From a virus, in the IMG/VR virus record IMGVR_UViG_3300017989_000057, positions 96,682-160,681 of that record: DNA of 64,000 nt; one strand, written 5' to 3'. Below the pieces are notes generated by a model that saw only the letters and a list, made by a program, of their open reading frames with translations, searched no databases and was not told where the DNA came from. Below are positions 6,745 through 56,832 of this stretch, one piece after another; position 1 is the first letter of the stretch, and each line of letters opens with the position of its first letter. The position numbers and the translations under genes are program-made.

Positions 6745-7072
6745 CGCTCACCCTTATAACATCGTCTTGCTCTGGAGTAGACGCTTCTAGATAAATAGTA
6801 TCAGTTATCCCATACATACGGTGTGTTCTGCCTGCGGGAATTGTATAATGTTCTCCTGGCATTAATTGTATATCTTCCCAGATAGAATCTGAACCAGAAA
6901 AATTAGTAGTAACGATTAGTATTCCACTTATTACTATAATAGTCTCGGTTTTGCGTTCATGATATTGTAAACTACAACGATTTCCAGCTTTCATAAATAA
7001 GCGCTTTACCATATAATTATTATTTACTTCTAACATTTCTTCCCTACCCCATGGCTTTTCAACGACTTTCAT
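6725..7072 (-). CDS. cupin-domain sugar isomerase/epimerase-like protein
   Basis: 115 residues from the ATG at 7072. The pattern VEKPWGREEM at the N-terminus and QYHERKTET, with a later GEHYTIPAGRTHRMYG, gives the His/Glu metal ligands of the cupin barrel seen in the C-terminal domain of mannose-6-phosphate isomerase/GDP-mannose pyrophosphorylase. Alone it probably binds a phosphosugar or nucleotide sugar. The gene is visibly more AT-rich than its neighbours, suggesting separate acquisition. Confidence 0.75.
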   Translation of the reverse strand: MKVVEKPWGREEMLEVNNNYMVKRLFMKAGNRCSLQYHERKTETIIVISGILIVTTNFSGSDSIWEDIQLMPGEHYTIPAGRTHRMYGITDTIYLEASTPEQDDVIRVSDDYGRK

Positions 7073-8436: not shown

Positions 8437-10762
8437 CGACCAATCCTTCGTCAAGAACCTCATCTTCGTCGGTGCCGTTTATCAAGTCCTGCGCTTTCCA
8501 GAGCTTGTCCAGGGCAACTACTCCCAGGAAGTCAAACTTAACGGCACCCATATCCTCTGCATTGTACATCTCCAGACCCACCACGCGATCCTTATTTCGT
8601 GCATCATAGGCCAGCGGCATAAATTCGACAATGGGTCTATCTGCGATGACGACTCCAGCCGCGTGCTTGGACTGAGATTTCTTGGTGCCCTCAATTCGCA
8701 TGGCTTGATCAAACAACGGCTTAAACCACTCATACGCATCCTGGACCTGTTCCACATTGTGAACAGCCCACTGTAGAATGCCGTAGTCGTCACCCTGTTC
8801 GGCCCGTGCCTGCCGCAACTCATCTGCGATGCTGGCTTCGTCGGGTATATACTGCGTTATGTCATTGCATAGGTCGTGCGGTGTCATGTTGATGTCGTCA
8901 GCGTCCTTACCCTCTTTCACAGCCTTGACCTTCATCAAATGTCTGACTGTATCTGGGTGAGCCCGAAATACTTCCTTGAGAGCCGCTTTGCCTTGTAGGC
9001 GACCGAAGGTGATCATTTGGGCGACATATTCCTCTCCCCATCGTTCTTTGAGGTAGGCGATGACTTCGTTGCGGAACACAACTCCGATGTCGGTGTCGAT
9101 ATCCGGGAGGCTGATGTGTTCGTCATGGGTTTTGACCTTGCGGCTGACATCCAATTCGTCGCGGCCCGCCAGAGTCAGACCCAGCCCATAAGCCAAGTGT
9201 GAGTTCGATGGGTTTTCTGCTGGCTTGTCCTGGATCATATCGTACAGATACATCCACATACGAGGATTCTTCTCGTCGATCCATTCCACCTCTTCCCTCA
9301 TCATGTCTGTGAATTCGACCTTCCCCTGCTTCATCCGTCTGGCTAGGTGCGTAGCCACCGCCTTCCGCTCGGCATCTGTGTCACGAGTATGCAACATCTC
9401 AAAGTTGTCGGACATCCATGACATGAAATCCGTCTGCCCGACATCAAAGTGGGGAGGGATATTCCTGCTCATATTGTAGAATCGTTCAAAGTACAGCCCG
9501 TATTCGATTGGATCGATGCCTGTAATTCCCGTCAGATAGTTGACCAGTGAGCCAGCACCAGAACCTCGCCCCTTACCTCGGGGGCCATTCCTTTCGTCCA
9601 CAAAGCGGCACGCATCCCACACGATAAGAAAGTAGTCAGCCAGTCCGGCTTCCATGATGACAATGAGTTCCCTCTGTAGGCGTTCCCAATAGGTTCGCTT
9701 CTGCTGTGCGTCGAGATGTGCCAATTTCGTCTTAGCACCCTCGATACATAGGTGTTTTAGATATTCATTCGAATCGAGGCCAAGGGTCTTTGACTCTTCG
9801 TTGGTGAAAATCGGGAGATAAGGATTGTGGCCCAGAGATGAATATTCGATCTGATCAGCAATGTCTAGTGTGGTCTGTAGTTCTGCCTCGGTGAAGTGTT
9901 TTCTCATCTCGTCATAGGACGGGATGTAGTACCTATCCGAAACCATGAAATCCATAACGTCGCCGGTCTGTTGCAGTTTGCGCTCCTGCTCTTCTTTGGT
10001 CGTGTGTAGCTGTGCATACAACAAGAGTCTCTGGTCCTCAGCCTCTTGTTGCTTGCAATAGTGTGCATCGATGGTGGCTACGGTTGGTACTCCCGTTTCT
10101 TCACTGAGTTCCCGCAGACACTCGACGACCAGCGTTTGAATACCCATACCTTCATCTTGTAGCTCAAGATAATAGTTGCCCTTGCCGAATGTGGCTAGGT
10201 GCTTGTGGATGATAGCTTTGCCAACGTCCTTCCAGTTGGGTCGCAGATACTTCCTTGCCCCGCTGGCGTTGCCATTCCTGCCTGCTATGATTGCTGTACG
10301 AAAATCTGTAAACAATGCCATCGGCAATTCGCCTGCGATACATGCGGTGAGGAAAATCAGATTGCCACGCTTGGCAAACGGGGCAATACCAGCGAGGTGG
10401 ATACGTGGTCTGCGGTAGAAATAATCTGGTCTATTTGATTCGCTGACCAGAGCCATCAGGTCTTTGATTCCCTGATCGTTTCTGGCGAGAACAATTAGGT
10501 GGTGTCGCCTGTTGTTGTCAGAGTTCTTGATATCTGCCTCTTTTTCGCAGACATACATTTCACACCCGATAATGGGTTTGACTTTCTTTTTCTTGGCAGC
10601 ATCATAGAAGACTTTCATGCCAGCAATATTGCCGTGGTCAGTCAGTGCGCACGCCGGTAACCCAAGCTCGGCACATCGGGCCACAATGTCCTTGGGCGAA
10701 CAGAGTCCGTCCAATAGACTGTAGAAACTGTGAACATGAAGGGGCGCATATGTCTTACTCAT
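8423..10762 (-). CDS. dnaE: DNA polymerase III alpha, N-terminal PHP and palm portion only
   Basis: 779 residues against roughly 1,100-1,200 for bacterial DnaE. The N-terminal PHP domain keeps its metal-binding signature (LHVHSFYS, ALTDHGNIAG, GCEMYV). The palm begins at GRGSGAGSL (residue about 398); catalytic Asp554 and Asp556 lie in SLPDIDTD and the third, Asp744, in VKFDFLG. About 110 extra residues lie between FERF (426) and the first catalytic pair. The chain stops 35 residues after the third Asp, so fingers, beta-clamp-binding and OB domains are missing. The end is a clean TGA overlapping the next gene, so a second half may be encoded elsewhere. Confidence 0.92.
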   Translation of the reverse strand: MSKTYAPLHVHSFYSLLDGLCSPKDIVARCAELGLPACALTDHGNIAGMKVFYDAAKKKKVKPIIGCEMYVCEKEADIKNSDNNRRHHLIVLARNDQGIKDLMALVSESNRPDYFYRRPRIHLAGIAPFAKRGNLIFLTACIAGELPMALFTDFRTAIIAGRNGNASGARKYLRPNWKDVGKAIIHKHLATFGKGNYYLELQDEGMGIQTLVVECLRELSEETGVPTVATIDAHYCKQQEAEDQRLLLYAQLHTTKEEQERKLQQTGDVMDFMVSDRYYIPSYDEMRKHFTEAELQTTLDIADQIEYSSLGHNPYLPIFTNEESKTLGLDSNEYLKHLCIEGAKTKLAHLDAQQKRTYWERLQRELIVIMEAGLADYFLIVWDACRFVDERNGPRGKGRGSGAGSLVNYLTGITGIDPIEYGLYFERFYNMSRNIPPHFDVGQTDFMSWMSDNFEMLHTRDTDAERKAVATHLARRMKQGKVEFTDMMREEVEWIDEKNPRMWMYLYDMIQDKPAENPSNSHLAYGLGLTLAGRDELDVSRKVKTHDEHISLPDIDTDIGVVFRNEVIAYLKERWGEEYVAQMITFGRLQGKAALKEVFRAHPDTVRHLMKVKAVKEGKDADDINMTPHDLCNDITQYIPDEASIADELRQARAEQGDDYGILQWAVHNVEQVQDAYEWFKPLFDQAMRIEGTKKSQSKHAAGVVIADRPIVEFMPLAYDARNKDRVVGLEMYNAEDMGAVKFDFLGVVALDKLWKAQDLINGTDEDEVLDEGLVDVTD

Positions 10763-31148: not shown

Positions 31149-32606
31149 CTATTCTCCCTTGATCTCATAAGACAGCTTAACTCCGCTGAATTCACTCGGC
31201 AGGATCACGGCGAGTTGGTCAACGACCCTCTGCCTCAAATCCACCGCCACATCCAATACCACCTTCAATTCGTCTGGGGTGACCGTCTTGGCCGTCCTGT
31301 GCGGGAACATCAGCTTCAACAAACCAGACCCTATCCGAACCAACGATCGCTGGTTACGCTGAGACATATCACCGAAACACACATTCTCTGTGATCACCGG
31401 CGCATAGTTGCGGTCTCTCATCCGGTGCATGATTTCGCTGACATAATCTGCCATGAATCCAGCACCCTTGGCTAGCTTTGACTCTCTTATCTGAGGTATC
31501 TGCCATCCAGGAATGAATCCATGGATACGGTCAAGGAAAGCACGGTCTTGACTGACTGCTTGTGGCAGCGGAGCAAACAGGCTGCGATACCGAGCGGCCA
31601 CCGCCTTTTTCTGCCTGTCGCAGTCAATGTTGCCAGCGAACATGATGGAACACCCAGACGCAAACTCTGCCGTACCACGCCCGAAGCGTCCACTGTTCAT
31701 GAAGTCTTTGAGCATATCGATGAGATCGCCCTGACCAGACCACTTGTTACCGTTGTGACCACCAGCAAACTCATCGAACATCACCACATCTCGATATCCG
31801 ACCAAGCCCAGTTGACGCCGCAACTTATCGTAGAACAGAGAAGCGACAGTGGTTTGACCACCAGAGACAACGAAGCCATAAGAGCTAAGGGACTGGTAAG
31901 CGAACGTCTTGCCTGTTTCCGGTGGGCCTAGCTCACAGAAATTTACGTTGGCTTCAATGAAGGGCACCAGCCGCACCATATACAACAGTTTCTCTTGGTG
32001 CGACAGAGCTTCGGGGTCAAAGCCGACACTGGTGATCATCAGGTCAAGCCACTCATCGTCTGTGAATCGCTCACGACGCTGAATCCATGTGTCGAGGTTG
32101 ATCCCGGTGATTTGCATAGGTCGGAATTCGGTGACCAGGAATGGGTACAGCTTTTTCCGCATGACGTAGGATTCATCGTACACGATTTTGAAGACACCCC
32201 ACGCCCCGGTTGTCAACAACGTGTCCCCGTACTCGGCTATGAGGTGCGGATTGATCCTGACATACTGGTTACCCAGCGCCGTGACATCAACCCAATATTC
32301 ATCCTTGCCCTCGTCGAACCGACAGCGGATACGACCAATCAGAGTGTATTCGCCTTGCTCCCTGATCCGACTTTTGACCAGTTCCTTTTGGTCCGATTCC
32401 ATGAAGTGATCGGTAAGCAGTTTGCTGATACGTTCCAGGCCGGGGGTTGGGTCTGTCGGGGTGACCATCTCGGAAATCAGGTAGTCCACCACAAATGCCG
32501 GGAGCTTGCGGAATTGCTCGCTGAGACACGCGAGACCTTTGTTTACAATAATTCCACGCTCACTGAAAACAGCGGCGGCTTTGTGTTTTGTCTCGATTCC
32601 GGTCAT
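31149..32606 (-). CDS. brxL: BrxL-like AAA+ ATPase lacking the Lon-like C-terminal domain
   Basis: 485 residues versus roughly 680 for BREX BrxL. Walker A is GPPETGKT (227-234), followed by the BrxL signature GFVVSGGQTTVASLFYDKLRRQLGLVG; Walker B is VVMFDEFAGG, and GRFGRGTAEFASGCSIMFAGN and FLDRIHGFIPGWQIP are further BrxL hallmarks. The N-terminal 150 residues match the BrxL DNA-binding region. The chain ends near FSGVKLSYEIKGE, where full-length BrxL continues into a Lon-like domain. No other BREX gene is in the window. Confidence 0.87.
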   Translation of the reverse strand: MTGIETKHKAAAVFSERGIIVNKGLACLSEQFRKLPAFVVDYLISEMVTPTDPTPGLERISKLLTDHFMESDQKELVKSRIREQGEYTLIGRIRCRFDEGKDEYWVDVTALGNQYVRINPHLIAEYGDTLLTTGAWGVFKIVYDESYVMRKKLYPFLVTEFRPMQITGINLDTWIQRRERFTDDEWLDLMITSVGFDPEALSHQEKLLYMVRLVPFIEANVNFCELGPPETGKTFAYQSLSSYGFVVSGGQTTVASLFYDKLRRQLGLVGYRDVVMFDEFAGGHNGNKWSGQGDLIDMLKDFMNSGRFGRGTAEFASGCSIMFAGNIDCDRQKKAVAARYRSLFAPLPQAVSQDRAFLDRIHGFIPGWQIPQIRESKLAKGAGFMADYVSEIMHRMRDRNYAPVITENVCFGDMSQRNQRSLVRIGSGLLKLMFPHRTAKTVTPDELKVVLDVAVDLRQRVVDQLAVILPSEFSGVKLSYEIKGE

Positions 32607-38182: not shown

Positions 38183-39196
38183 CTAACTATCCTTTGGCAT
38201 TGTTTCGCTGAGAGATAGTGGGCTCACCACAACGTACTTCACAGCAGACCGTAGTTGGTCAAGATTCTCAGCGCCACCCATCGCAAGACCAGACCTGATT
38301 CCCTTGATGTACTCGCCCACGACTTCTTCTGTCTGGCCTCTGTCCCCCATCTCGATCTCGACACCCTCTGGGGCAATGTCTGGCCTACCGGAAACGGCAC
38401 GACTGCTCATTCCACGGTACATCTTACGACCGTCAATACGGGGGGTCGCATTCGTTCCAGCCAACATGTACCCGATCATACACGCATCAGCGCCAGCCCA
38501 AAGAGCCTTGACCATATCTCCGCTGGTTCTAAGTCCACCATCAGCGATAATAGAAATGCCGCCATATCCAGCTTCTAGAGACTGGTATGCTTCTTGGATG
38601 GCTGCTAGCTGTGGATAACCAAACCCAGTGACTAGTCTGGTAGTACAAGCTGCTCCAGGGCCGATGCCGACCTTAATGGCATCCACACCATGATCTGCGA
38701 ATTTGCGGGTGGCCTCTGGGGTACACACGTTGCCAGCCATAATGATGAAGTGGTGGTGATCTTTCAGTCCTACCAAAATCTTGATGGCTTCATACATCTT
38801 TTCGTGATCGCCATGAGCCACATCCAGACAGATGACGTTGCATCCAGCGTTGAGTAGTAGCTGTGCCTTTTGGCCTACGTCCCCCTTGATGCCGATTGCA
38901 CACCCAATGTTGTTTGCCCCTTGGTTGCGAGCCCAATGGATTTCGCGTATTTGTCTACCCATCTCTTCGTCTGGGTCAAGATTGATGTGACGGCTGAGGA
39001 TACCGAGACCGCCGATCTTGTCCATGACTACGAGCATATACTTCCCGGTAATCGAATCCATTGGGGCGGAGATAAGTGGAGACCTCAACTCCAATTTGCC
39101 AAGATGCGTTGACACATCCGGCACTGTCCGCGAGTCCAGTTTGGAGTATTGCGGGACGAGCAAGATGTCGTTGAAACACAGCTTTCGATCCTGCAT
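38183..39196 (-). CDS. IMP dehydrogenase / GMP reductase family enzyme
   Basis: 337 residues, the length of GMP reductase or a CBS-less IMPDH. LCFNDILLVPQYS and APMDSITG open the barrel; IKVGIGPGAACTTRLVTGFGYPQL is the catalytic Cys loop, in a form close to GuaC; IIADGGLRTSGDMVKALWAGAD binds phosphate, and KMYRGMSSRAVSG is the flap region seen in both. It interconverts guanine and inosine nucleotides; direction (GuaB or GuaC) is not decided by sequence alone. Confidence 0.88.
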   Translation of the reverse strand: MQDRKLCFNDILLVPQYSKLDSRTVPDVSTHLGKLELRSPLISAPMDSITGKYMLVVMDKIGGLGILSRHINLDPDEEMGRQIREIHWARNQGANNIGCAIGIKGDVGQKAQLLLNAGCNVICLDVAHGDHEKMYEAIKILVGLKDHHHFIIMAGNVCTPEATRKFADHGVDAIKVGIGPGAACTTRLVTGFGYPQLAAIQEAYQSLEAGYGGISIIADGGLRTSGDMVKALWAGADACMIGYMLAGTNATPRIDGRKMYRGMSSRAVSGRPDIAPEGVEIEMGDRGQTEEVVGEYIKGIRSGLAMGGAENLDQLRSAVKYVVVSPLSLSETMPKDS

Positions 39197-39588: not shown

Positions 39589-40002
39589 CTACCTATAACC
39601 AGTGACAACGACTCTCTGACGACCACCGGGACATCTTTCTCTGGTGACTGTACGACCACGCGATTCCTGCTCGCGTCGTACTTTATGGAACGCATAATTG
39701 CCTTTGAGTTGTCCGACCCACTGCTCACCATATCGACCTCGATCATACGCAGATATGATTGCTGCGTAGCTTCCTTCGTCATCCTTGACGAACCCAATGT
39801 CGTTAGAAGCACTGCCGACATGCTTCTTTCTGATAATTACGTGTGCAGTCTCAGGGCGCTGATCTCCACGATATCCAAATAGATGCTGAGGAACCTGGTG
39901 GACTTCAATTTGCTGACGAGTCCACTCACCAGTTTCCATTAGAGCATCTACGAGAGCGGCCTCATCTTTGAATTGGGTTTTGACGGTGCAGTATCTAGAC
40001 AT
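39589..40002 (-). CDS. DUF1257 (Ycf35-like) protein
   Basis: 137 residues from ATG 40002 (TAATG overlap with the upstream stop). The N-terminus CTVKTQFKDEAALVDAL, the segment LFGYRGDQRPETAHVIIRKKHVGSASNDIGF and ISAYDRGRYGEQWVGQL fit the DUF1257 family, which includes the plastid/cyanobacterial Ycf35 protein. It is three genes downstream of a Ycf46-like AAA+ protein. Molecular role unknown. Confidence 0.75.
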   Translation of the reverse strand: MSRYCTVKTQFKDEAALVDALMETGEWTRQQIEVHQVPQHLFGYRGDQRPETAHVIIRKKHVGSASNDIGFVKDDEGSYAAIISAYDRGRYGEQWVGQLKGNYAFHKVRREQESRGRTVTRERCPGGRQRVVVTGYR

Positions 40003-40583
40003 TAGAGTTCTCCACGAGCTTTCAACCACCTCGCCCTTGCGAACGCATTCATCGAACGAAATGTGTCTGCGATAAATTCATCATCGAACTTATCGCAACC
40101 ACAGCCAGGACAGTCGTCGTCGTCGTCATCGTCTTCGTCGTCCGACTCATCCCAACATCCACACGTATCTGGATCGAGACCGCAGTGAATACATTCGTCG
40201 TTGTTACAAAGACAATCTTCCCATGGCTGTTCACACTCTGGACAATAAGTGTCCAGACAATCTTCACACAAGAGTTTGCCATCTACACGATCGCAGCATC
40301 CACACTGATCACACCCTGCGTTGCCGGTATCTTCTCCGTCGCCATCTAGTTCGACGATACGAACCGGCTTAAGCGCTATAGCGAATTTGGGAACATCACG
40401 AGATGGATCGTGGTTCTCACGCATCTTCCTTAGCTCTGCTGCAACACCGCCGTTAATGCCAGAGTCAAATGTGGTAAAAATCTTGTCGTGTAATTCGATA
40501 CACCGACCGCCTGCGTAGTATCCGATTCCCCACGCAACTCCAGAGTGGTAACAACCACCCATCTGAATATCATGTTCACACAT
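40002..40583 (-). CDS. cysteine-rich acidic zinc protein
   Basis: 193 residues. The first 80 residues lack a known fold. Residues about 90-155 contain many CxxC pairs (CDQCGCCDRV, CEDCLDTYCPEC, CIHCGLDPDTCGC), then a run of Asp/Glu and a final CPGCGC. The style resembles the Cys repeats of the E2-like protein at 52091 but without regular spacing. It lies between the DUF1257 and DUF3150 genes in one operon. Confidence 0.65.
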   Translation of the reverse strand: MCEHDIQMGGCYHSGVAWGIGYYAGGRCIELHDKIFTTFDSGINGGVAAELRKMRENHDPSRDVPKFAIALKPVRIVELDGDGEDTGNAGCDQCGCCDRVDGKLLCEDCLDTYCPECEQPWEDCLCNNDECIHCGLDPDTCGCWDESDDEDDDDDDDCPGCGCDKFDDEFIADTFRSMNAFARARWLKARGEL

Positions 40584-40598: not shown

Positions 40599-41609
40599 TT
40601 ACAGTACGACCCGCCTCTTCAATTCACCAATGAACTTACTACCACTTTGACCCTCGGCAGCAGCCTTATTCCTAATGGCTTCGAGTGCCTTCGTGACGCT
40701 GTTCTTGACGGTAGCAGATTCGAAATCCTGCGGCGCAACACCGGCATCCAGGAATGTGTCCCTGAATTCAGTCAACATATTCTCAATTTCTCCGTCGCCA
40801 AAGATGTTCATCGACCGGAAGCGATCGACGTAGTTTCGGAAACAAGAGATTGACTTCGGAGTCAGCCGCTTACTGTCTGTTTCGTCGCCAAATGGTTTCC
40901 CGTTGATTCTGGCGGTCATCAACTCACAGAATCGCACAGTTTCATCACGCATAGCAGTGACATACTCGCCGACGAACTCACCAACTTCGTTCTGCATCTG
41001 CCGACGAAGTTCTGCCTCTTTCTCGTCTTGCACCTTCTGCCGGGCGACCACTTCCTCGGCGCTGGTGGCCTCGATAGACCCCATTCCAGCGATACGGAAC
41101 GTGAACCAATCGAACTGGAACCTCTCCCGCAGGGCCTTCGGATTTGGCGGGTAGTGACCCTTTAGACACTTGTCCCAAAATTCTGGGTGTGCTTCCCTGA
41201 CCGTCTTGACAAGATCATCGAACCTGACGATGAAGCTATCGACACGCTGGAAAAACTCTTCCTTGAGCCCAGCAATCTGTTGTTCGACTGTCGGCAGCAT
41301 CTTTGCCGGAACGAAGTGGGCGTTGGCAATACCAAACGGCACCGACCACCGTTCAAGCGCCTTACGGGCACGCTGCTCGATCTGTGTAAGGGCCTGGAGT
41401 TCCGACTTCGGAACCATCAGCTTCCTGCCGAGATTGACAATCTCTTCAGGGAGCCTATCAGGATCATACCCCACACGGACCAGATCGTGTCGGGTTAACA
41501 TCTTGCGGCCCGACCACATCTTGATCTTCAGGTTTACCAAACAACCAACTTCAAACAGGTTGATGGCATCCTGATCCGACTTCGGTTTCTGTGCTGTAGC
41601 CGTACTCAT
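40599..41609 (-). CDS. DUF3150-like protein
   Basis: 336 residues, mostly helical. The N-terminal segment NLFEVGCLVNLKIKMWSGRKML and later FDDLVKTVREAHPEFWDKC fit the DUF3150 family, usually encoded beside an AAA+ ATPase, as here (Ycf46-like gene ten bases upstream). Probably a substrate or partner of that ATPase. The assignment rests on pattern memory. Confidence 0.65.
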   Translation of the reverse strand: MSTATAQKPKSDQDAINLFEVGCLVNLKIKMWSGRKMLTRHDLVRVGYDPDRLPEEIVNLGRKLMVPKSELQALTQIEQRARKALERWSVPFGIANAHFVPAKMLPTVEQQIAGLKEEFFQRVDSFIVRFDDLVKTVREAHPEFWDKCLKGHYPPNPKALRERFQFDWFTFRIAGMGSIEATSAEEVVARQKVQDEKEAELRRQMQNEVGEFVGEYVTAMRDETVRFCELMTARINGKPFGDETDSKRLTPKSISCFRNYVDRFRSMNIFGDGEIENMLTEFRDTFLDAGVAPQDFESATVKNSVTKALEAIRNKAAAEGQSGSKFIGELKRRVVL

Positions 41610-41619: not shown

Positions 41620-43179
41620 TTAGCCTAGTGAGACTTTCCTTCCGCCGATCTTGGGTGGCGGACTCTTCTTCGGTGGGTTAGCAGGCTTAGCGTGGCGCTC
41701 GCACCACTGCTTAGTATCTGCAATACGCTGTGCTTCCGTCTTTGACAACGGAATGATTTCTGGGACAGCACGATCCAGGTGTTTCTGTTCGAGTTGTCCA
41801 CCTTCTGCGAATGCCATCTTGAGACCGAGCTTGATGATTTGCTCAATATCAGCCCCGGTGTATCCATCTGTCGCCTTTGCCATTGCCTCAAGGTCGAACG
41901 ACTTGGGTTTCCTACCTCTCTTAGACAGGTGGATACAGAAGATTTCCTGTCGTTCGGTGATGGTAGGAAGGTCGAGCCCATAGATTTCATCGAAACGACC
42001 CTTACGACAAAACTCCGGTGGTAGCGATTGCACTTGGTTCGCAGTGGCAATCGCATAGACTGGGGAACTTCTGTCGTTTAACCACTTGATGAACGAGCCA
42101 AAGACACGACGGGACGCACCGCCGTCCATGTCTCCCGCACCGCCGAAGCCCTTCTCGATCTCGTCAAGCTGCAACACACATGGGGCTATGCTCTCCAGCA
42201 TCTTGATTGCTTCCCTCATGTTCTTCTCAGACTCGCCAACAAACTTGTCCATCAGATTGCCGACATCCATTGCAATAAGAGGAAGTCCAAGCTCCGACGC
42301 TATCGCCAGAGACAGCAGTGTCTTACCACAGCCTGGGATACCAACAAGCATAAGACCCCGTGGAAACTCAATGCCGAACTCCCGTGCTTCGTGTGTGAAG
42401 CAGGGCTGGTCGAGCAGAACATGCTGTTTCAATGCGTCGTAACCACCGACTATCGACAATCCGCCCTTCGGCGGTTCTACATATGTCAATAGACCTGATG
42501 CCCTGATTACACCCGCCTTCTCCCTAACGATGGTTCGCACGGCGTCTGGATTCAAGTCCTTGTGCTTTCGCAGTGCCAATGCGACACGATCTACTGTCTG
42601 TTGGGAAGTCATGCCGCGACACGCATCGACGATTTGTGGTATCATATCCTTGTTCGGTTTGAACTTGGTTCCATCCGCCTTGGTAACGTCGCTACACACA
42701 AAGCCGATCCGCTCATTGATCTGATCGTTTCCCGGCAAGGCGAAGTCGATCTGAGTGATGTCATGTAGCAGAGGCTTTGGGACATCGAAGTCTGGCCCGA
42801 CGAAAACGATGGTCTGACGAACAGACGCCACGATACGACGAAGCTCATCCAGCCATCCGATGACGATATCGTAACCTGGGTAGGTTTCGTGTTTCAGATA
42901 CCCACCGAAGTCACGCAACACACAAATGACGCCCTCCGGGAAGTCGAGGATTGCCCGGAGTTGGTCTTCGACTGGGGCCGTTTCCTTGACATCACAAACT
43001 GACGTGCCCTTCACATCCGTCCACCCCTGAGCGATAGACCAGATGTAGACTTTCCGGTCGGTAGCCTCAGCAACGTCTGCGATCTCGCTGATAGCACGAT
43101 CTTTCTCAAAGGTGTCTACGTGCAGCAGAGCGTGACCTGAACAAACATAATCGCAGATATCTGTTTTGAAATCAGACAT
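41620..43179 (-). CDS. ycf46: Ycf46-like AAA+ ATPase
   Basis: About 519 residues from ATG 43179, eight bases after GGAG. The N-terminal 200 residues match the Ycf46 domain (LLHVDTFEKDRAI, YIWSIAQGW). The AAA+ module follows: Walker A GIPGCGKT, Walker B CVLQLDEIEKGF, sensor 1 YAIATANQ, Arg-finger region CRKGRFDEIY, and GYTGADIEQIIKLGL is the sensor 2/lid helix. CDC48/FtsH-like remodeller without protease domain. It is encoded with DUF3150, DUF1257 and DUF2997 genes. Confidence 0.85.
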   Translation of the reverse strand: MSDFKTDICDYVCSGHALLHVDTFEKDRAISEIADVAEATDRKVYIWSIAQGWTDVKGTSVCDVKETAPVEDQLRAILDFPEGVICVLRDFGGYLKHETYPGYDIVIGWLDELRRIVASVRQTIVFVGPDFDVPKPLLHDITQIDFALPGNDQINERIGFVCSDVTKADGTKFKPNKDMIPQIVDACRGMTSQQTVDRVALALRKHKDLNPDAVRTIVREKAGVIRASGLLTYVEPPKGGLSIVGGYDALKQHVLLDQPCFTHEAREFGIEFPRGLMLVGIPGCGKTLLSLAIASELGLPLIAMDVGNLMDKFVGESEKNMREAIKMLESIAPCVLQLDEIEKGFGGAGDMDGGASRRVFGSFIKWLNDRSSPVYAIATANQVQSLPPEFCRKGRFDEIYGLDLPTITERQEIFCIHLSKRGRKPKSFDLEAMAKATDGYTGADIEQIIKLGLKMAFAEGGQLEQKHLDRAVPEIIPLSKTEAQRIADTKQWCERHAKPANPPKKSPPPKIGGRKVSLG

Positions 43180-43189
43180 TGACATTCTC

Positions 43190-43462
43190 CTATTTAACGT
43201 GTTTCCAGCTTTGGCCGTTTTTAATTTTTTGGATGGTTGTGCGGCCAACACCGAACAGTTTCCCTATTTCTTTCTGTGTGTGCCCATCGTCTAACATCTC
43301 CCGTATTTGTGGGATCATCTTTTCCGAAAGTTTAGACTGTCCATGACTAGAACCTCGCGTTTCTACCCGACTGCTACCACCGACAATTCTTTTAACTCGT
43401 CCGAAATCAGAAACCTGGTAAACACCTTCATATTGTGGTATATCTTTCCAGGTTTCATTCAT
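43190..43462 (-). pseudogene. HNH homing endonuclease remnant: NUMOD4 plus HTH without HNH core
   Basis: 90 residues. WKDIPQYEGVYQVSDFGRVK is NUMOD4, and SKLSEKMIPQIREMLDDGHTQKEIGKLFGVGRTTIQKIK is the DNA-binding tail. Compared with the paralogues at 20807, 22268 and 35758, about 80 residues covering the HNH site are missing in frame. It is open and has a start, so it may be kept as a DNA-binding protein or be a deletion product. Confidence 0.7.
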
Positions 43463-48624: not shown

Positions 48625-49389
48625 CTAAGCCTCCCTACATCGGGCGGCTTCGACTGTTTCCATACACAGGTGGCAGTTCATTCCCTCCGCAAGTTTTTCC
48701 GACCGCCACCCCCACACATACTCCTGAGCGTCACCCCAAATGGTTTCGCTGAAGTGTTTCCACGGGAAGTACCCGAACGGGCATCTCCCTATCATCCCAT
48801 CCTCCGTGATGATCATGTTGCACATTCGTTCACAGGAACACTGGACGGTTCCACGAGGCGCAAGACCGTTATCCCACGCCCTGCCGATTGGTATGATGTC
48901 GTCTATGCCCAAGTCTCCAGTCTGGACAAGTTCGACACCAAGATCATTTTCGTCTAGTAACTTGACAGCACGATCACCTGGAGAGCTATGCCACTGATCT
49001 TCGGACACAGCAACCTCAATGTGTTCGCACACAGCGACCAGTTCCTCCATTGCGCCAACGAATCTGCCTATGTCGGCGACTGTGTTTGCGAAGAATCCGT
49101 TGGTGACCAACCTAATCCGGTCTCGACCGCTGGATAATGCTACCAGCATTTCCGGGTAGTTGTCCAAAACGGTTACTTCGCCGCCCATGATATTTAGTAC
49201 GATGGTCTTGGGCACCTACCGATTGATTGCTGCACAGGTTTCGAGAGACATTTGACCCACACACTCAGGGCCAGACCGAAAACAGCAATGCCGACATCTT
49301 TGGCTACACTGATTGGTTACTCGCAGTATACAGGCGTTCGACGCGGTATCGCCGTTCCATCTCTGAAACCACTCGTCGTGACTGGTCAT
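48625..49389 (-). CDS. radical SAM protein with an in-frame amber codon
   Basis: Starting at ATG 49389 (GGGGGCAACCGAG upstream), codons 28, 32 and 35 give TNQCSQRCRHC, the radical SAM CxxxCxxC iron-sulfur motif. Codon 58 is TAG (49216-49218) and the frame continues without break from GTG-CCC into KTIVLNIMGGEVTVL, the second conserved radical SAM strand, then LVTNG and a C-terminal SPASM-like Cys set (CSCERMCNM, GRCPFG, CHLCMETV). Read through, the product is 254 residues. The amber may be suppressed, or the enzyme may be split or dead. Confidence 0.8.
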
Positions 49390-49757: not shown

Positions 49758-50417
49758 CTACATTGCTCCCATCTCATTCGTCAGCAGGTTGACATCGATT
49801 TCCTTATCGACATCACACCCACGCAACCACTTGGCGAACTGTGCGACCCTCAATCCTGCCGAGACGTTAGCACAGTAGATGGTTGTCTTCGCAGTACACG
49901 CTCCCTGGTACGCCTCCGCTGCTGGGAACAGTGTGGTCGCATAGTGCTCACGGGAAGCCTCGTCATGAACGGTGAAGATTCGCACATACTCTGCGCTCAT
50001 TCGACCGTCGATGAAAAGGTCTGCCCGATTCCTGACTGCCTCGAAGATGGCTTTCCTGGTGTCGATCTTGTCAACACAGCAGAACATGACGCCACCAGTA
50101 AAGTCGATCGATCTGAACTTTCGGTTGATGACTTCGATCTGGATTGCCGAGTTGATAGAGACACACAGGTCTCTCGTGGCTTCGACCTTCGGCCTGCCAA
50201 GATCAGCCTCGTGGTATCCCTGCGCCGCAAGATTCTCTGGGCGTACCGTATCAGGATCGATGAGAGTAATCCTTGGTACCCCGATGGCTGCCAACTGAAG
50301 TGCTACCTGACGACCGCCAGCACCGACGCCGACCACCGTTACCCTCGTGGTTTGCAGCTTCTCTGGCGGAATCAGTTCTCTCTGACGGATGTCTCTATTT
50401 TCGATTACTGTACTCAT
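49758..50417 (-). CDS. ThiF/E1-like ubiquitin-activating enzyme
   Basis: 219 residues from ATG 50417, which overlaps the JAB gene stop (GTATGAG). VTVVGVGAGGRQVALQLAAIGV (Gly loop at 30-35), DPDTVRPENL (Asp54/Asp56, Asn62) and DLGRPKVEAT (Lys77) form the adenylation site. Cys174 in QGACTAKTTIYCANV is the candidate thioester Cys. It lacks the zinc CxxC pairs of MoeB/ThiF and has no UFD domain. It would adenylate the Ubl at 53775. Minimal single-domain E1. Confidence 0.88.
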   Translation of the reverse strand: MSTVIENRDIRQRELIPPEKLQTTRVTVVGVGAGGRQVALQLAAIGVPRITLIDPDTVRPENLAAQGYHEADLGRPKVEATRDLCVSINSAIQIEVINRKFRSIDFTGGVMFCCVDKIDTRKAIFEAVRNRADLFIDGRMSAEYVRIFTVHDEASREHYATTLFPAAEAYQGACTAKTTIYCANVSAGLRVAQFAKWLRGCDVDKEIDVNLLTNEMGAM

Positions 50418-51364
50418 ACCGCTTCCTCCATTGCCAGTTCGCGTTCGTCTGCGTACCTGTTGGCCCACAACACGACTTGCGTTACCCAGTGTTCGTTCGG
50501 AGGGGTTGTTTCGATGAACTCGTCATCACCCTCCAGGTCTTCGACGTACCACTGTTCCCTGATGGGGTCATAGAAAAACCACACACCATCTTCGTCATCC
50601 CAGTATGCAACGTCGCCGTTGGAGTCCCAATGACAATCGATGTCGTCTACGGTAGAACTCCCATCGCCTGCTGCTGCAATCTGTCGATCAAGTTCTTCCT
50701 GTTGGGTTGTCCACCTGTCGTGTTCTTCACACCACCAGAGGGGGTCTTCGTAGCCGTTGGCTGGAAAGGAACCAGCGCCACTAGACGCCGCACCTTCCTT
50801 TCCTGTCATGCGGAACTTCTGTTCCACGACCTTGGCCTTGTACTCCGTTTCCCATGCCTGCGTGTCGGTGCCACCGAACGGGACTGTCCAATCGACGGCG
50901 ACTTTGATTTCTTTGATCACTCCAGGCCCGACGTTGACTTTCAGACGACAGTACGCCGCGCCACCCTCGGCGATGATGAACATGATCGCCCAGTTCGGGT
51001 GAGAAAACGCTGCTACGAAATTCTTCTCGTCTGTACCTGACGGGGTGGGACTGTTCCCCGGATGTGTGTGGATGAGGATGTTGGAATAGGCCCACGGTGG
51101 GAGCCCAGTATCGAGCATCCTGTCCATATAATCAGCGCCATCTTCTGGGTCGAGGTCGAAACTAGCACCTGTGCATTCCTGTTTGATCAGGACGAAATCG
51201 GTCACTAGTAGTGGGTCTTCCGTGGCTGTGACACCGTATCCGGCGACTTCTGTATCCCCACGGTCCCTCATCCACAAGAGTTTCGCCCAGGCGTATGGCG
51301 TGAACCGTAGCTGTTCTCCGAACGTCATTTTCGGGGTCATGAACTCAGACATTTTTGTCTCCAT
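50414..51364 (-). CDS. JAB/JAMM (MPN+) isopeptidase
   Basis: 316 residues. Glu39 in DTEVAGYG and His99, His101 and Asp112 in ILIHTHPGNSPTPSGTDE form a complete JAMM motif (HxH-x10-D with Ser105). Residues about 190-290 are an extra acidic, Trp-rich C-terminal region (EDPLWWCEEHDRWTT, DDEDGVWFFYDP) not part of the core. Expected to trim the Ubl C-terminus or remove it from targets. Co-translated with the E1-like gene through an ATGA overlap. Confidence 0.9.
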   Translation of the reverse strand: METKMSEFMTPKMTFGEQLRFTPYAWAKLLWMRDRGDTEVAGYGVTATEDPLLVTDFVLIKQECTGASFDLDPEDGADYMDRMLDTGLPPWAYSNILIHTHPGNSPTPSGTDEKNFVAAFSHPNWAIMFIIAEGGAAYCRLKVNVGPGVIKEIKVAVDWTVPFGGTDTQAWETEYKAKVVEQKFRMTGKEGAASSGAGSFPANGYEDPLWWCEEHDRWTTQQEELDRQIAAAGDGSSTVDDIDCHWDSNGDVAYWDDEDGVWFFYDPIREQWYVEDLEGDDEFIETTPPNEHWVTQVVLWANRYADERELAMEEAV

Positions 51365-51381
51365 TGTGGTTGTCCCTGGTG

Positions 51382-51387
51382 TATAAT
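51382..51387 (+). promoter_or_regulatory. -10 box for the plus-strand HNH gene
   Basis: Perfect TATAAT in CTGGTGTATAATACAG, 35 bases before the GTG start. The plus-strand gene at 56077 has the closely similar GATGGTGTATAATAGAC. No clear -35 box; TCTCCA lies about 18-19 bases upstream in both. Confidence 0.55.
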
Positions 51388-51421
51388 ACAGCAGGCGGAT
51401 TTACTGCCAGGGAGGTTGATT

Positions 51422-52099
51422 GTGAGAACCAAAGCAAGCAAAGAAAAAGAAAAGGCTCGACAAAGACAGCAGTACCAAGAACGACTAGCTCAAGGTCTGT
51501 GCCCCAGATGCGGCGGAACGCCCGCCACTGAAAAAAAGTTTTGTGCTTCTTGCTCCACAAGGACGTGTGGTCGAGATAAGCAGCGACGACTTGACCGTCT
51601 GGCGAAGGGGTTGTGTCCTCAATGTGGAAAACGAGAATGTGCCCCAGGTCGGAAGAAATGTGTCGTCTGTGGTGAAGCCGGTCGCAGGAACGTGAAAGCA
51701 CGAGAATCCCGACTGGTGAACGACGGTCTTTGTACTCGTTGTGGCCAACATCCGTTTCTTCAGTCCATGACCGACAGGACTTCTCGGTATAGAGAATGTC
51801 AGGAGTGCTACCTAAAGCGCACTGCCAAGAACAATCTGGGTTCTGAAGATTTTGCGCCATTACTGCTGGCCAAGTTAGAGGCCCAGCAGTGGATGTGTCC
51901 CTATACCGACGAGATATTGGTTCTCGGGCACAACGACTCGATTGACCACATTCTCCCAAGGTCAAGATTTCCTGACTTGGCGACTGACCCAGAGAACGTC
52001 CAGTGGGTGTTGCGTGATGTCAATTCAATGAAGAACCAACTCACCAACGATGAGTTCCTGGGACTTGTTGCCATCATCTACCGTCATCGGTTACGATGA
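51422..52099 (+). CDS. plus-strand HNH endonuclease with tandem zinc ribbons
   Basis: 225 residues from GTG 51422, six bases after GGGAGG. Three Cys-rich repeats (GLCPRCGG...CASC, GLCPQCGK...CVVC, GLCTRCGQ...CQEC) precede an HNH core with CPYTDEIL, SIDHILPRSRFPDL and NVQWVLRDVNSMK. It is inserted, in the opposite orientation, between the JAB and E2-like genes and overlaps the E2 3' end by nine bases. Probable selfish endonuclease or restriction-like nuclease. Confidence 0.85.
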   Translation: MRTKASKEKEKARQRQQYQERLAQGLCPRCGGTPATEKKFCASCSTRTCGRDKQRRLDRLAKGLCPQCGKRECAPGRKKCVVCGEAGRRNVKARESRLVNDGLCTRCGQHPFLQSMTDRTSRYRECQECYLKRTAKNNLGSEDFAPLLLAKLEAQQWMCPYTDEILVLGHNDSIDHILPRSRFPDLATDPENVQWVLRDVNSMKNQLTNDEFLGLVAIIYRHRLR

Positions 52100-53410
52100 C
52101 TCATTGGTCACTCCCTCTAGTAGACAGTTGTGTTCACGCTCGCAGGAACCGCACATTGGAGTCCCACAGTGCTCACATGAGTTATCGTTACACCTATTAC
52201 AGACGGTCTTGTCGCATTCAGAACACGTCTCCTGACACCCCTTGCAGATGTCCTGGCTACATTCCTCGCATCTTTCATCGACACAGGCCGAGCAACACTC
52301 GTCTCCACAACACCCGCATGTGATTGTGCAGTCCTGACACACGGAATCTCCGCAGTACGCACATGCCGACTTGCACTCGTCACAATATGCCCCGACGCAG
52401 ATAGCGCATCCGCTCACACACGACGAACACATTTGGTTATCGCAATCATGACATGTGCTTCCACATCCATGACAGAGTGTCTCTTGACAACCATAACACG
52501 TTGTGCTACATTCACCGCAACGCCACTCGCCGCATTCCGTGCAGCATCCACCACCGACATCGCAATACTCGCAGTAGTTGTTCTGACATCCTTCGCACCA
52601 GCAACCGCTTTCGTAGCTACGCCACTCTTCGCATCCCTCACAGTAAAACTGACCCTCATGATCTGGATCGTACCATTCACTCAATCGTTCGTATGGCGAA
52701 GCCTCGTTATACGTTCGCAGAACTGCTTCGATGACCCTGAAGTAGTCCTCTAGCCGTCCTTGACACAGAGCATCCTGAGAAGGAAGGCCACCAGCGCCGA
52801 TACAGAGCTTACCGCCGGACACATGTGGATGAGAGTATCCGCCTGGAGATTCAATTTCGTTGATCGATTCGATACGAAGACTGTCCAGGGGATGTGAGAG
52901 GTTGACGTGTATCCAGAAATCCCCCAGGAACACTTCCTCGTGCTCATCGCTCAGGGTAACATCCTTGACCAACACGGACAGGACATTGCACCTGAACTTG
53001 ACTTCTGGCCACGCGCTGTTTATTATCCGAATTTCGTCGATTGCTTCTTTGGGCGACAGCACGGTGACGATCTGTTTGGTTACCAATGACTTGAGCATTG
53101 CTGTGGCACTCTGTGTGCCGTGTATGACATCATACCCAAGGTCTGGGATCAGAGCGGTGGCGATTCTCTCATACGCCGATGCACAGACAATACCCATGTG
53201 TGGTTCTGTGTCCCACTCGTTTTGCTGGATTCTCTGCGTTGAGCCAGTGAAGAACCTTCCAGCCCACATCTCCATCTGTGACGCTTTGTCGTTCACCCTA
53301 CGGAGACAGTCGAGGATAGACGTTTTCCCAGAATCCACAGGAGACCGGGCCTGAGACAGCAACCAATCCCTGTATTTTATGGCCGCACGCCGTATCAGCT
53401 TTTCGTTCAT
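52091..53410 (-). CDS. E2-like ubiquitin-conjugating enzyme fused to tandem zinc repeats
   Basis: 439 residues. The UBC-like core (about 135-245) shows the strand pattern FLGDFWIHVNLSHPLDSLRIES and then GYSHPHVSGGKLCIGAGG, matching HPN...G-x-CL of E2 enzymes, so Cys203 is the predicted catalytic residue. Residues about 257-288 hold irregular Cys pairs, and 290-423 are nine tandem units of C-x2-C-x4-C-x2-C about 15 residues long. The array could act as a fused E3-like substrate binder. The first 130 residues are of unknown fold. GGGGA precedes the ATG. Confidence 0.85.
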   Translation of the reverse strand: MNEKLIRRAAIKYRDWLLSQARSPVDSGKTSILDCLRRVNDKASQMEMWAGRFFTGSTQRIQQNEWDTEPHMGIVCASAYERIATALIPDLGYDVIHGTQSATAMLKSLVTKQIVTVLSPKEAIDEIRIINSAWPEVKFRCNVLSVLVKDVTLSDEHEEVFLGDFWIHVNLSHPLDSLRIESINEIESPGGYSHPHVSGGKLCIGAGGLPSQDALCQGRLEDYFRVIEAVLRTYNEASPYERLSEWYDPDHEGQFYCEGCEEWRSYESGCWCEGCQNNYCEYCDVGGGCCTECGEWRCGECSTTCYGCQETLCHGCGSTCHDCDNQMCSSCVSGCAICVGAYCDECKSACAYCGDSVCQDCTITCGCCGDECCSACVDERCEECSQDICKGCQETCSECDKTVCNRCNDNSCEHCGTPMCGSCEREHNCLLEGVTNESS

Positions 53411-53427
53411 GGTGAATCCCCTTTATA

Positions 53428-53471
53428 CAGGCTGATGAGCCTAACTTTGCCGAAAACAGGCTGATTCGCCT
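53428..53471. promoter_or_regulatory. paired palindromes upstream of the E2-like gene, possible operator
   Basis: CAGGCTGATGAGCCT (53428-53442) and CAGGCTGATTCGCCT (53457-53471) are near-identical, each with an AGGC...GCCT palindrome, 29 bases apart. They fill the 64-base gap between the E2-like start and the preceding stop. Likely a protein-binding site or a pair of RNA hairpins controlling E2 expression. Confidence 0.45.
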
Positions 53472-53474
53472 GAC

Positions 53475-53696
53475 CTATTCTGGTTCGTCTGGCCTAGCCA
53501 AGCACTCCGCGAGCCCATCTACATAATCTTCCAAGTGTAGAAGGACTTCGCTGTATCCGAACGCATGACCATCTTCCCATGCCATGTGGGACAGCCACCC
53601 ACGGAATTTCTTGGGGACTCGCGCCAGAAGCTTGGTTTGCCTTCGTGTAAACTCTTCCTCAGTCATTCGGGGTACTGGACCGCGTTGCTGGGTCAT
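53475..53696 (-). CDS. hypothetical small helical protein
   Basis: 73 residues from ATG 53696 (GGAG upstream). Basic helical first half (TEEEFTRRQTKLLARVPKKFRGWLSHMAW) and acidic second half. It lies between the E2-like and Ubl genes, so it may belong to the conjugation locus, but no known fold is recognised. Confidence 0.55.
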   Translation of the reverse strand: MTQQRGPVPRMTEEEFTRRQTKLLARVPKKFRGWLSHMAWEDGHAFGYSEVLLHLEDYVDGLAECLARPDEPE

Positions 53697-53710
53697 TATT
53701 GACTCCGAAG

Positions 53711-53745
53711 AAAGAGGGGCGGGGGGTGCGTTCCCCCCGGCCCCC
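53711..53745 (-). terminator. strong hairpin between the Ubl gene and the downstream genes
   Basis: Minus strand GGGGCCGGGGGG and CCCCCCGCCCC pair around AACGCA, followed by TCTTTCTTCGG. The U-tract is interrupted, so it may be an attenuator: strong expression of Ubl with lower expression of E2, JAB and E1 genes beyond it. Confidence 0.6.
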
Positions 53746-53774
53746 GCCTCCACCAGACGCCCTACGGCGTCATT

Positions 53775-54008
53775 CTACTCACCCTCGACCTTCGTCGGAG
53801 CGAGAGAAACCCGATCGCCGTCCTGGAGCACGTAGTCCCGGTGCGCCTCGACGGTCGTGCCGTTCGCACGAACCCGAATCGTGAACTCATCCGGGTCGCC
53901 ATCGAAGGAAACCTCCAGGAACTTCTCAAGAGTCGTACCCTCGACCACAGGAACACGCACGGGCAGGCCCGCTCCATCATTCGTTACCAGCGTTACCTCG
54001 ATCATCAT
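53775..54008 (-). CDS. ubiquitin-like beta-grasp protein (MoaD/ThiS-like)
   Basis: 77 residues. IEVTLVTNDG forms the first hairpin, GTTLEKFLEVSFD the helix, FTIRVRANGTTVEAHRDYVLQDGDRVSLAP the last strands of a MoaD/ThiS-type beta-grasp. The C-terminus is KVEGE: one Gly followed by Glu, so removal of the last residue (by the JAB enzyme) would expose a C-terminal Gly for adenylation. No sulfur-carrier or molybdopterin genes are nearby, which argues for protein conjugation. Starts at one of two adjacent ATGs. Confidence 0.82.
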   Translation of the reverse strand: MMIEVTLVTNDGAGLPVRVPVVEGTTLEKFLEVSFDGDPDEFTIRVRANGTTVEAHRDYVLQDGDRVSLAPTKVEGE

Positions 54009-55050: not shown

Positions 55051-55099
55051 ACACACACGGGCCAAACTGGTTCAGATCACGAGACTTTTTTGCAGCCCC
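55051..55099 (-). repeat. repeated upstream element copy 2
   Basis: Minus strand GGGGCTGCAAAAAAGTC, about 14 bases, then AACCAGTTTGGCCCGTGTGTG, matching copy 1 in both halves and in spacing. It overlaps the last codons of the isochorismatase-like gene and precedes the gene at 54783-55034. Confidence 0.6.
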
Positions 55100-55674
55100 A
55101 TGACCAGCAGAGACTCAATGCTGACTTCCCTCTCCGGTGGCTCTGGAGGACCATAGTCCTGACAATAATCCGACTCGTATTCCGGCGTCACTAGGTCGGT
55201 AACCACATCCACTTCAACGAGGTCGCTGTGCTCGAACAACCCCTTCACCGTAGCCGGGACACAAGCGTCACCGTAGACGCCGCAGACGAGAAGATGGTTG
55301 GACCACTTCGGATGCCCCCTCAGACAATCGACGACTTCCTCGCCGCCGTCCTCACAGTTCTTAATGACCGTATCGACGTGTGGGTAGTCGCCAATCTCAT
55401 CCACGATCTGTTGCGTCGTGCGACCCAAACCACCAAACTCAACCAGAACGATTCCCCACTGGTTGGTTTTAGCCAGACGCACCAAGTCGCAGGTTCCGAT
55501 GATGAGTTCCTGGAATGAACCATCATACCCTCGGCAAGAATCTTTGCCGATGAAGTAATCCTGCATGTCTACGATTACGACTGTTCTTTCCGGTGTGTGT
55601 TCGGTGCTGTCGCTAGACATCATCTTGCGGAGCCGCTGATGCGCCAGATACCGAGCCCTCTCGAATGCGTGCAT
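55072..55674 (-). CDS. isochorismatase-like cysteine hydrolase
   Basis: 200 residues from ATG 55674 (AGGGGA upstream). VVIVDMQDYF gives the catalytic Asp, a Lys lies in DTVIKNCEDGG, and LLVCGVYGDACVPATVKGL holds the nucleophilic Cys of the isochorismatase/nicotinamidase fold. Likely hydrolyses an amide such as nicotinamide, carbamoyl compounds or an isochorismate analogue; substrate unknown. In phages such enzymes may alter NAD-linked defences. Confidence 0.78.
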   Translation of the reverse strand: MHAFERARYLAHQRLRKMMSSDSTEHTPERTVVIVDMQDYFIGKDSCRGYDGSFQELIIGTCDLVRLAKTNQWGIVLVEFGGLGRTTQQIVDEIGDYPHVDTVIKNCEDGGEEVVDCLRGHPKWSNHLLVCGVYGDACVPATVKGLFEHSDLVEVDVVTDLVTPEYESDYCQDYGPPEPPEREVSIESLLVMGLQKSLVI

Positions 55675-55700
55675 AGTTAGTCCCCTATGGAGCGCCTTAC

Positions 55701-55925
55701 TTACCCGTGCGGTGAGAAGAACAACTCTTCTTCTCCGTTGATATATGACGACAGTGCGTCGAGGGTTTCCACTGAATTGTCCGGCAGAGACAGCAATTTG
55801 CCTATCTCTCTGATCTGCTGTTTCTCTTCTTCGGTACGATTCCAGTAGCCGTCGCCGACGATACACTGAAGTTCATCCGCCGCTCTATCTTTAGCGACCT
55901 GGACCTTCTGTTCAATTGTCAGCAC
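55701..55925 (-). CDS. hypothetical small helical protein
   Basis: 74 residues, helical, acidic (TEEEKQQIREIGKLLSLPDN). No family recognised. Upstream a 150-base divergent region contains an AGCCCACC/GGTGGGCT inverted repeat with a 27-base loop and the plus-strand promoter at 56052. Confidence 0.55.
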   Translation of the reverse strand: MLTIEQKVQVAKDRAADELQCIVGDGYWNRTEEEKQQIREIGKLLSLPDNSVETLDALSSYINGEEELFFSPHG

Positions 55926-56076: not shown

Positions 56077-56754
56077 ATGAAAACGAAAGAAAAATTAGAA
56101 GCTAGACGGATAAGAATCGAGGAGCAGCTTTCTATCAAGGCGATAGCCGCTCGACTCGACGTTGCCAAGAGCACGGTTAGTCTTTGGGTGCGAGACTTGC
56201 CACTTTCGGAAGAGATACTGCAACAGAAACAGTTAGTCGGTGCTACCAGAGGGGGCAAAACTCGTGCCGACAACGCCAGAGCTATCAGGAGAGAATACCA
56301 GCAGGCTGGGAGAGAAATGGCCATTAGCTTGGAAGATGATCCTCTTTTCGTCGCAGGATGTATGATGCATTGGGCAGAGGGTGATAAAAATAAGAACCTA
56401 GCTGGGATCAGCAACACCAGTCCACATTTTCTTCGCTTTTGGTTAAGATTTCTGCGACGATTTTTCGAGGTAGAGCCTAAAGACATGGCTCTCCATATCT
56501 ACTGCTACCTTGGCAACGGCAAGACGCAACAGCAGATCGAGCGATACTGGCTGAAGCAACTCGACCTGCCACGGTCATGCTTGAGGAAGACGACAGTTGT
56601 GACCAAACACAGATTCAGCACATTTGCCAAAAAGAACAAACACCCGTATGGTGTTGCCCATCTGAGGACGGGATCAACAGAAGTGGTCCAAAAGATATGG
56701 GGGGCTATCAAGCTACTTGCAGACATTGACGAAGAAGACCAATGGTTAGATTGA
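56077..56754 (+). CDS. HTH plus LAGLIDADG-like endonuclease-type protein
   Basis: 225 residues. An N-terminal HTH (LSIKAIAARLDVAKSTVSLWVRD) is followed by two repeats resembling LAGLIDADG halves: FVAGCMMHWAEGDKNK...PHFLRFWLRFLRRFF and YGVAHLRTGSTEVVQKIWGAI. Proteins of this layout occur as mobile single genes in bacteria and phages. Plus-strand, immediately upstream of a minus-strand tRNA; a likely selfish insertion. Confidence 0.75.
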   Translation: MKTKEKLEARRIRIEEQLSIKAIAARLDVAKSTVSLWVRDLPLSEEILQQKQLVGATRGGKTRADNARAIRREYQQAGREMAISLEDDPLFVAGCMMHWAEGDKNKNLAGISNTSPHFLRFWLRFLRRFFEVEPKDMALHIYCYLGNGKTQQQIERYWLKQLDLPRSCLRKTTVVTKHRFSTFAKKNKHPYGVAHLRTGSTEVVQKIWGAIKLLADIDEEDQWLD

Positions 56755-56755
56755 A

Positions 56756-56828
56756 TGCCCCTGACCGGGTACGATCCGGTATCTGCGGCTTGAAGGGCCG
56801 CTGTCCTATCCATTTAGACGACAGGGGC
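56756..56828 (-). tRNA. tRNA-Glu (anticodon UUC)
   Basis: 73-base cloverleaf on the minus strand. Acceptor GCCCCTG pairs with CAGGGGC, the D-arm is followed by GCGGC-CCTTCAA-GCCGC with anticodon TTC, and ACCGG-ATCGTAC-CCGGT is the T-arm. Discriminator base A, CCA not encoded. The T-loop has ATCGTAC instead of TTCGANT, a phage-like deviation. Confidence 0.9.
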
Positions 56829-56832
56829 AAAG

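Follow-up and report, generated by a model that had tools for sequence, protein, structure and literature searches.

The stretch of DNA analysed here (the window: 64,000 nucleotides, bases 96,682-160,681 of the 160,681-bp IMG/VR virus record IMGVR_UViG_3300017989_000057) carries on its minus strand four genes in the order Ubl-E2-JAB-E1, coding respectively for a ubiquitin-like protein (Ubl), an E2-like protein, a JAB/JAMM metallopeptidase and a ThiF/E1-like adenylyltransferase. The sequence shows these genes with their active-site residues, in a fixed order and inherited together in many phages, and points to a self-contained, phage-encoded cassette for ubiquitin-like protein conjugation, a reading to which we give a probability of about 0.8; catalysis, processing of a pro-Ubl and an E3-like role for the tail of the E2-like protein are what we infer beyond this. 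A first-pass annotation, made from the letters alone, had described E1, JAB, E2 and Ubl open reading frames (ORFs) on the minus strand, and all four were found where it had placed them. Its view that they form a conjugation set and not a sulfur pathway is supported by the retention of the genes together in dozens of phages, by an E2 profile that retrieves E2 enzymes and by a search in which sulfur partners were not found over threshold.

Conservation of the four genes in phages

The JAB protein alone led to a 168-kb virus contig (L004) in which the four genes stand in the same order. When two-sequence alignments were used as bait, 6 loci were recovered with JAB and 43 with E1. A single-protein scan of viral contigs with the E2-like protein gave no relatives, and tblastn searches of phage records with the E2-like protein and JAB gave none. 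The alignment of 19 E2-like sequences contained no segment of sufficient conservation to serve as a scanning query. After removal of the window's own copy and of one duplicate, 51 E1 loci were compared, 46 of them with at least 3.5 kb of upstream sequence. JAB was present in all of these (46/46), an E2-like gene in 45/46 and a Ubl in 43/46, the last figure being made up of 41 found by profile and 2 recognised by eye (L020 and L035). The expectation that relatives would keep the four genes together is thus borne out in dozens of phages.

In the contigs of the window's type, the Ubl-E2-JAB-E1 order, all on one strand, was shown by profiles built from the relatives. A second group, of which L002, L003 and crAss001 are examples, consists of crAss-like phages; in these, JAB has an E2-like gene with the motif H[SP]H...CLG just upstream, and the E2-like gene is in turn preceded by a beta-grasp-like one. 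Distance matrices computed for each of the four proteins across 15 window-type loci correlate with one another (rho 0.64-0.82; p 0.001-0.002 by permutation), which shows co-inheritance, functional linkage not being implied by the correlation alone. Cultured carriers exist, crAss001 growing on Bacteroides intestinalis and DAC15 on Bacteroides thetaiotaomicron, so that the question of conjugation is directly testable. E2-JAB-E1 (L053:2-3320) also turned up in a scan of genome contigs, in a metagenome-assembled genome of Candidatus Shapirobacteria; the contig, of 3.3 kb, is perhaps from a phage of this lineage or a misbinned phage contig.

Most of what is known of ubiquitin-like systems in bacteria concerns defence against phages; a set retained by numerous phages would turn that picture round. 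That dozens of phages, cultured crAss-like phages of the gut among them, keep the four genes side by side suggests that viruses themselves use protein tagging and are not only its targets.

Active sites of the four proteins

The Ubl gene (53775..54008, minus strand) codes for a beta-grasp protein of 77 residues. Taken singly, this protein has a weak Pfam match to ThiS (0.019). The profile of its family matches PF1061, ThiS and SAMP2, with ThiS among its best PDB matches, and the PDB matches of the AlphaFold model (predicted local distance difference test score, pLDDT, 87.5) include MoaD, ubiquitin and SUMO. The window Ubl ends in KVEG-E, a conserved Gly76 (codon 53781-53783) being followed by a single variable residue, Glu77. 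The relatives have AN, ATL, AVIL, A, ELN, AGR, AH or N after the glycine; the Ubl of L020 ends in KVKGG-IH, that of L010 continues for about 60 residues, and crAss-like Ubls show K-x-[AS]-G and then a long extension. A pro-Ubl processed by the neighbouring JAB would be expected to show this combination of conserved glycine and variable tail, and the window protein would be such a pro-Ubl, trimmed by JAB. The initial description of a beta-grasp protein ending in Gly-Glu therefore holds for the fold and the glycine, but Glu77 belongs to the non-conserved tail. The structural model and the conserved Gly76 thus point to a beta-grasp Ubl with an activatable C-terminal glycine, as a conjugation system calls for.

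The E1 ORF (49758..50468, minus strand) gives a Pfam ThiF match of 9.3e-26. The protein probably starts at Met18 (ATG 50415-50417), its start codon overlapping the JAB stop codon as ATGA (50417-50414). At a mean column identity of 24%, the residues Gly47, Gly49 and Gly52 of the glycine loop, together with D71, D73, N79, K94, D133, R138, R156 and C191, are invariant in the family. From its position in the family, Cys191 (codon 49896-49898) would be the thioester cysteine. The E1 thus appears to combine an adenylation site, minus one arginine discussed below, with a candidate thioester cysteine.

The JAB gene (50414..51364, minus strand) codes for a metallopeptidase of 316 residues. The window protein alone has a weak Prok-JAB match (Pfam 1.3e-4), and the best PDB match of an 18-member profile is a Caldiarchaeum Rpn11-like protein (3.7e-9). 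The residues E39, H99, H101, S109 and D112 are invariant in the 18 sequences (mean column identity 23%) and make up a JAMM deconjugase motif, so that the intact Glu39/His99/His101/Asp112 first seen in the window extends to all 18.

The E2-like protein (439 residues, 52091..53410, minus strand) has no match to any curated family and carries an HP...C.G active-site motif. Its UBC-like domain (residues 120-236; 52703..53053, minus strand) contains the loop HPHVSGGKLCIG, which bears Cys203 (codon 52802-52804). H194, P195, C203 and G205 are invariant in an alignment of 19 sequences with a mean column identity of 19%. When a profile restricted to this domain was compared with the PDB, 18 of the 20 matches (E-values up to 10) were E2 enzymes, and HPhV...klCl was aligned over HPNI...QVCL of UBE2L3, which places Cys203, the cysteine of the HPH...KLC pattern pointed out at first, on the E2 catalytic cysteine. 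The predicted structure, mostly of high confidence, comprises a helix (120-133), four strands (137-140, 143-154, 159-170 and 179-182), the active-site loop and two helices (205-216 and 220-231). Second UBC-like proteins were observed in two other places, directly after E1 at L017:10908-12263 (plus strand), and unlinked to the cassette at 39914-40294 (minus strand) in the record of L015 (G004).

Downstream of this domain the E2-like protein carries a Cys-rich tail of about 170 residues (257-429; 52124..52642, minus strand), which the first-pass annotation did not mention. It contains about 21 CxxC pairs with a spacing of 7-8 residues, and its profile matches RING, LIM, PHD and FYVE zinc modules, so that a zinc ladder is probable. 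A Cys-rich E2 protein (16-52 Cys) was found in 17 of the 19 relatives, the tail being missing in L020 and L035. Such a tail may have an E3-like or substrate-binding role, possibly as a built-in E3.

On these grounds the following pathway can be proposed. JAB would cut the pro-Ubl after Gly76, which E1 would then adenylate, probably holding the Ubl as a thioester on Cys191. The Ubl would be handed to Cys203 of the UBC-like E2 and joined by it to one or more target proteins, the CxxC zinc-ladder tail standing in for a separate E3 or substrate adaptor, and JAB may also take the tag off again.

Several points weigh against this reading. Most Ubls of the family have a single glycine and not Gly-Gly. 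The arginine of NxxRQ (NLQRQ in MoeB) is an alanine in the window E1 (NLAAQ); of the complete adenylation site claimed at first, the glycine loop, Asp71, Asp73, Lys94 and Asp133 are indeed invariant, but this arginine is replaced. The PDB matches of the E2 profile are individually weak (best E-value 0.16), although they appear convincing as a set. The proposed UBC fold agrees with the predicted order of elements and with the profile matches, but when the full-length E2 model was compared with the PDB by Foldseek, no UBC fold was among the 50 best matches. These were mainly zinc-finger proteins aligned on the tail (LIM, PHD, RBR, FYVE), plus coiled or helical proteins. Since the Cys-rich tail dominates the full-length model, this result does not amount to a refutation, and the UBC fold of residues 120-236 is predicted from profile and secondary-structure evidence, the fold search giving no confirmation. 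Among viral models, Foldseek matched the E2 model to a crAss-like protein of 373 residues (5.5e-4). Finally, the survey was baited with E1 and JAB and shows what accompanies E1, not how frequent E1 or the cassette is, and several loci are near-identical, so that there are fewer independent cases than were counted.

Genomic setting and alternative roles

The minus strand of the window, which bears the cassette, also carries genes for a DNA polymerase, a primase, a DnaB-like helicase, a UvsX-like recombinase and a ribonucleotide reductase; a terminase match lies in the same virus record, outside the window. In crAss001 the cassette (Gp76-Gp79) is located between the primase and uracil-DNA glycosylase genes. 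As the cassette stands amid replication-type genes both in the window phage and in crAss-like phages, a use in the replication phase is likelier than one in virion assembly. Our guess is that it modifies host or phage proteins in that phase, for host takeover or counter-defence. We consider it rather probable that large phages, among them the crAss-like ones that abound in the human gut, own a complete Ubl pathway with which host or viral proteins are tagged in the course of replication, and that in the clade of the window an E2 is fused to an E3-like zinc ladder.

A set devoted mainly to opposing host conjugation of the Bil, Bub or CBASS (cyclic oligonucleotide-based antiphage signalling system) type, in which JAB strips host tags and Ubl and E2 compete with or cap host components, is possible, and we hold it only tentatively. 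Host conjugation systems do act against phages (PMC10097602, PMC11153139), and the phage has a JAB of its own, Rpn11-like. However, JAB alone would suffice for stripping tags, whereas the full set, with invariant E1 and E2 sites, is kept in 45/46 loci. Furthermore, the E2-like protein has no sequence match to CBASS E1-E2 models, and JAB matches the CBASS JAB models weakly.

It is unlikely that Ubl and JAB serve the assembly of the virion, as in lambdoid TAPI/TAPK, with E1 and E2 attaching the Ubl to a virion protein. Phage Ubl-JAB pairs are known from tail-assembly clusters, but in the passages on these clusters the JAB of TAPK has an NlpC/P60 domain linked to it, and no E1 or E2 is described for the TAPI clusters (PMC1779556). 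The position of the cassette among replication and not tail genes argues mildly against such a role, and the paper on the virion structure of crAss001 makes no mention of Gp76-Gp79 in its main text (PMC10172136).

Still less probable is a proteasome-like unfolding route, in which the Ubl would mark proteins for a neighbouring AAA+ ATPase. Genes for an AAA+ ATPase of 543 residues (41620..43251, minus strand), a possible partner of the cassette, and for an adjoining DUF3150 protein (40599..41609, minus strand) lie downstream; both are co-conserved in the closest relatives, a few kb downstream and, for the AAA+ gene, in synteny. JAB also resembles the proteasomal Rpn11. However, no AAA+ gene was found in the record of L020 or, for most divergent loci, in the neighbourhood of the cassette, and in L009 the gene lies elsewhere. 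Nor was a protease chamber identified.

The least credible alternative is a sulfur-carrier pathway, in which the ThiF-like E1 would activate the Ubl as a sulfur donor of the ThiS/MoaD kind, to modify a cofactor, tRNA or nucleoside: the E1 is ThiF/MoeB-like, ThiS matches the Ubl profile and JAB genes occur with ThiS/MoaD-like proteins in bacterial sulfur-assimilation clusters (PMC1779556), but the cassette holds an E2-like gene with an invariant active-site cysteine and, as first stated for the window, partner enzymes were not found, no rhodanese, MoaE or ThiG being detected over threshold in the window record and five related ones, which are possibly fragments and whose hosts could supply partners. 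This result makes the role unlikely; the single sub-threshold ThiG match in the six records falls on the TIM-barrel IMP dehydrogenase-like gene of L004.

The conjugation cassette itself is interrupted in the window. The four genes of the locus first described are there, but an HNH/endonuclease VII-like gene (51416..52099) on the opposite, plus strand lies between E2 and JAB, as an insertion outside the conserved cassette; it is absent from L004, L005 and L010, where E2 and JAB abut or overlap. A small ORF of 92 residues between Ubl and E2 (53475..53753, minus strand) weakly matches a PHROG family whose function is unknown (8e-5), and a family matching it was not found in three or more of the compared loci. 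In L013 a similar Cys-rich putative endonuclease ORF was seen by eye at the E2/JAB junction, on the strand opposite to the cassette, together with an HNH-like ORF between JAB and E1 (2430-3167, minus strand, and 4125-4820, plus strand, both putatively of homing type). In L044, ORFs that by eye resemble LAGLIDADG homing-type endonucleases (6821-7693, minus strand, and 8753-9865, plus strand) split the frames of JAB and E1, and Rfam revealed no introns at these split genes. Depending on the phage, putative homing-type endonuclease genes have invaded several of the junctions between the cassette genes or the JAB and E1 frames themselves.

Other genes of the window were also observed. A BrxL-like protein is encoded at 31149-32606 (minus strand; BrxL ATPase domain 5e-104, N-terminal domain 3e-27); it is encoded by the phage itself, although BrxL takes its name from the BREX (bacteriophage exclusion) defence system. 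An IMP dehydrogenase/GMP reductase-like protein (38183-39196, minus strand, 4e-80) and an isochorismatase-like protein (55072-55866, minus strand, 1.4e-8) are likewise phage-encoded. Two adjoining ORFs at 48625-49389 (minus strand) may represent a single radical SAM gene broken by a frameshift or a stop; the first has a CxxxCxxC-like motif and matches Radical SAM very weakly (0.21). A tRNA-Glu (TTC) gene (56755-56829, minus strand) lies immediately beside an ORF of 225 residues (56077-56754, plus strand), whose N-terminus was judged by eye to be helix-turn-helix-like.

Comparison with known systems

No description of a phage E1-E2-JAB-Ubl cassette was found in searches of an open-access library; subscription papers and preprints fell mostly outside this scope and may hold an earlier mention. 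In the operon descriptions of Iyer et al. 2006 concerned here, bacterial Ubl-JAB-E1-E2 operons and a Ubl-JAB pair in phage tail clusters are reported, and no phage with E1 and E2 (PMC1779556). Lambdoid TAPI/TAPK, as characterised in those descriptions, resemble the cassette as a phage-borne Ubl and JAB, but lack E1 and E2, belong to a tail-assembly locus and have a JAB linked to NlpC/P60. The class 6d operons (Ubl, JAB, E1-like, E2-like and a helical protein), likened here by their description there, hold the same four components at one locus (PMC1779556). Their bacterial E2s are described in the same source as lacking the classical conserved histidine, whereas the viral E2 of the window has it.

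The PRTRC plasmid cassette has a ThiF component resembling the window E1 (TIGR03736, 2.3e-8). Membership of PRTRC was rejected, a comparison of the E2 with one PRTRC protein B (Deinococcus gobiensis) giving an hhalign probability of 2.4%. The E1 and JAB of CBASS (Cap2/Cap3), Bub and Bil are similar to those of the window, BubCD being among the PDB matches of the E1 profile (2e-12); for Bil, the likeness to the cassette is one of gene content alone. CBASS fuses E2 and E1, whereas in the window the two genes are separate and carried by a phage, and PADLOC gave no match for the window E2 or Ubl.

The operon of Caldiarchaeum subterraneum (pro-ubiquitin, E1, E2, a small RING protein and Rpn11) is likewise a complete set, with a pro-peptide past the C-terminal glycine of its Ubl. 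Rpn11 of this archaeon removes conjugates and also trims a pro-ubiquitin whose propeptide is nine residues long (PMC5654768). The operon differs in being cellular and archaeal, with a separate RING E3 and a di-glycine, whereas the phage-borne set of the window has an E2 with a CxxC ladder and mostly a single glycine.

Neither ThiF nor ubiquitin is mentioned in a 2023 review of Crassvirales (PMC10136315). In crAss001, Gp79-Gp78-Gp77-Gp76 follow the same Ubl-E2-JAB-E1 order and are annotated respectively as hypothetical, hypothetical, metalloprotease and ThiF; genes so labelled in crAss-like phages would gain a joint function. The crAss001 E1 is about 29% identical to the window E1, and the Crassvirales E2 aligns with the window E2 profile over 65 columns around the active site with an hhalign probability of 94.6%. 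The Crassvirales Ubl is an extended precursor, its C-terminal extension being longer than in the window. The E2 motif is HSH...CLG in crAss001 and HPH...LCxG in the window, and the Cys-rich tail is absent from the crAss-like sequences inspected. A set retained by many phages would also offer a compact system for studying the chemistry and evolution of E1, E2 and Ubl.

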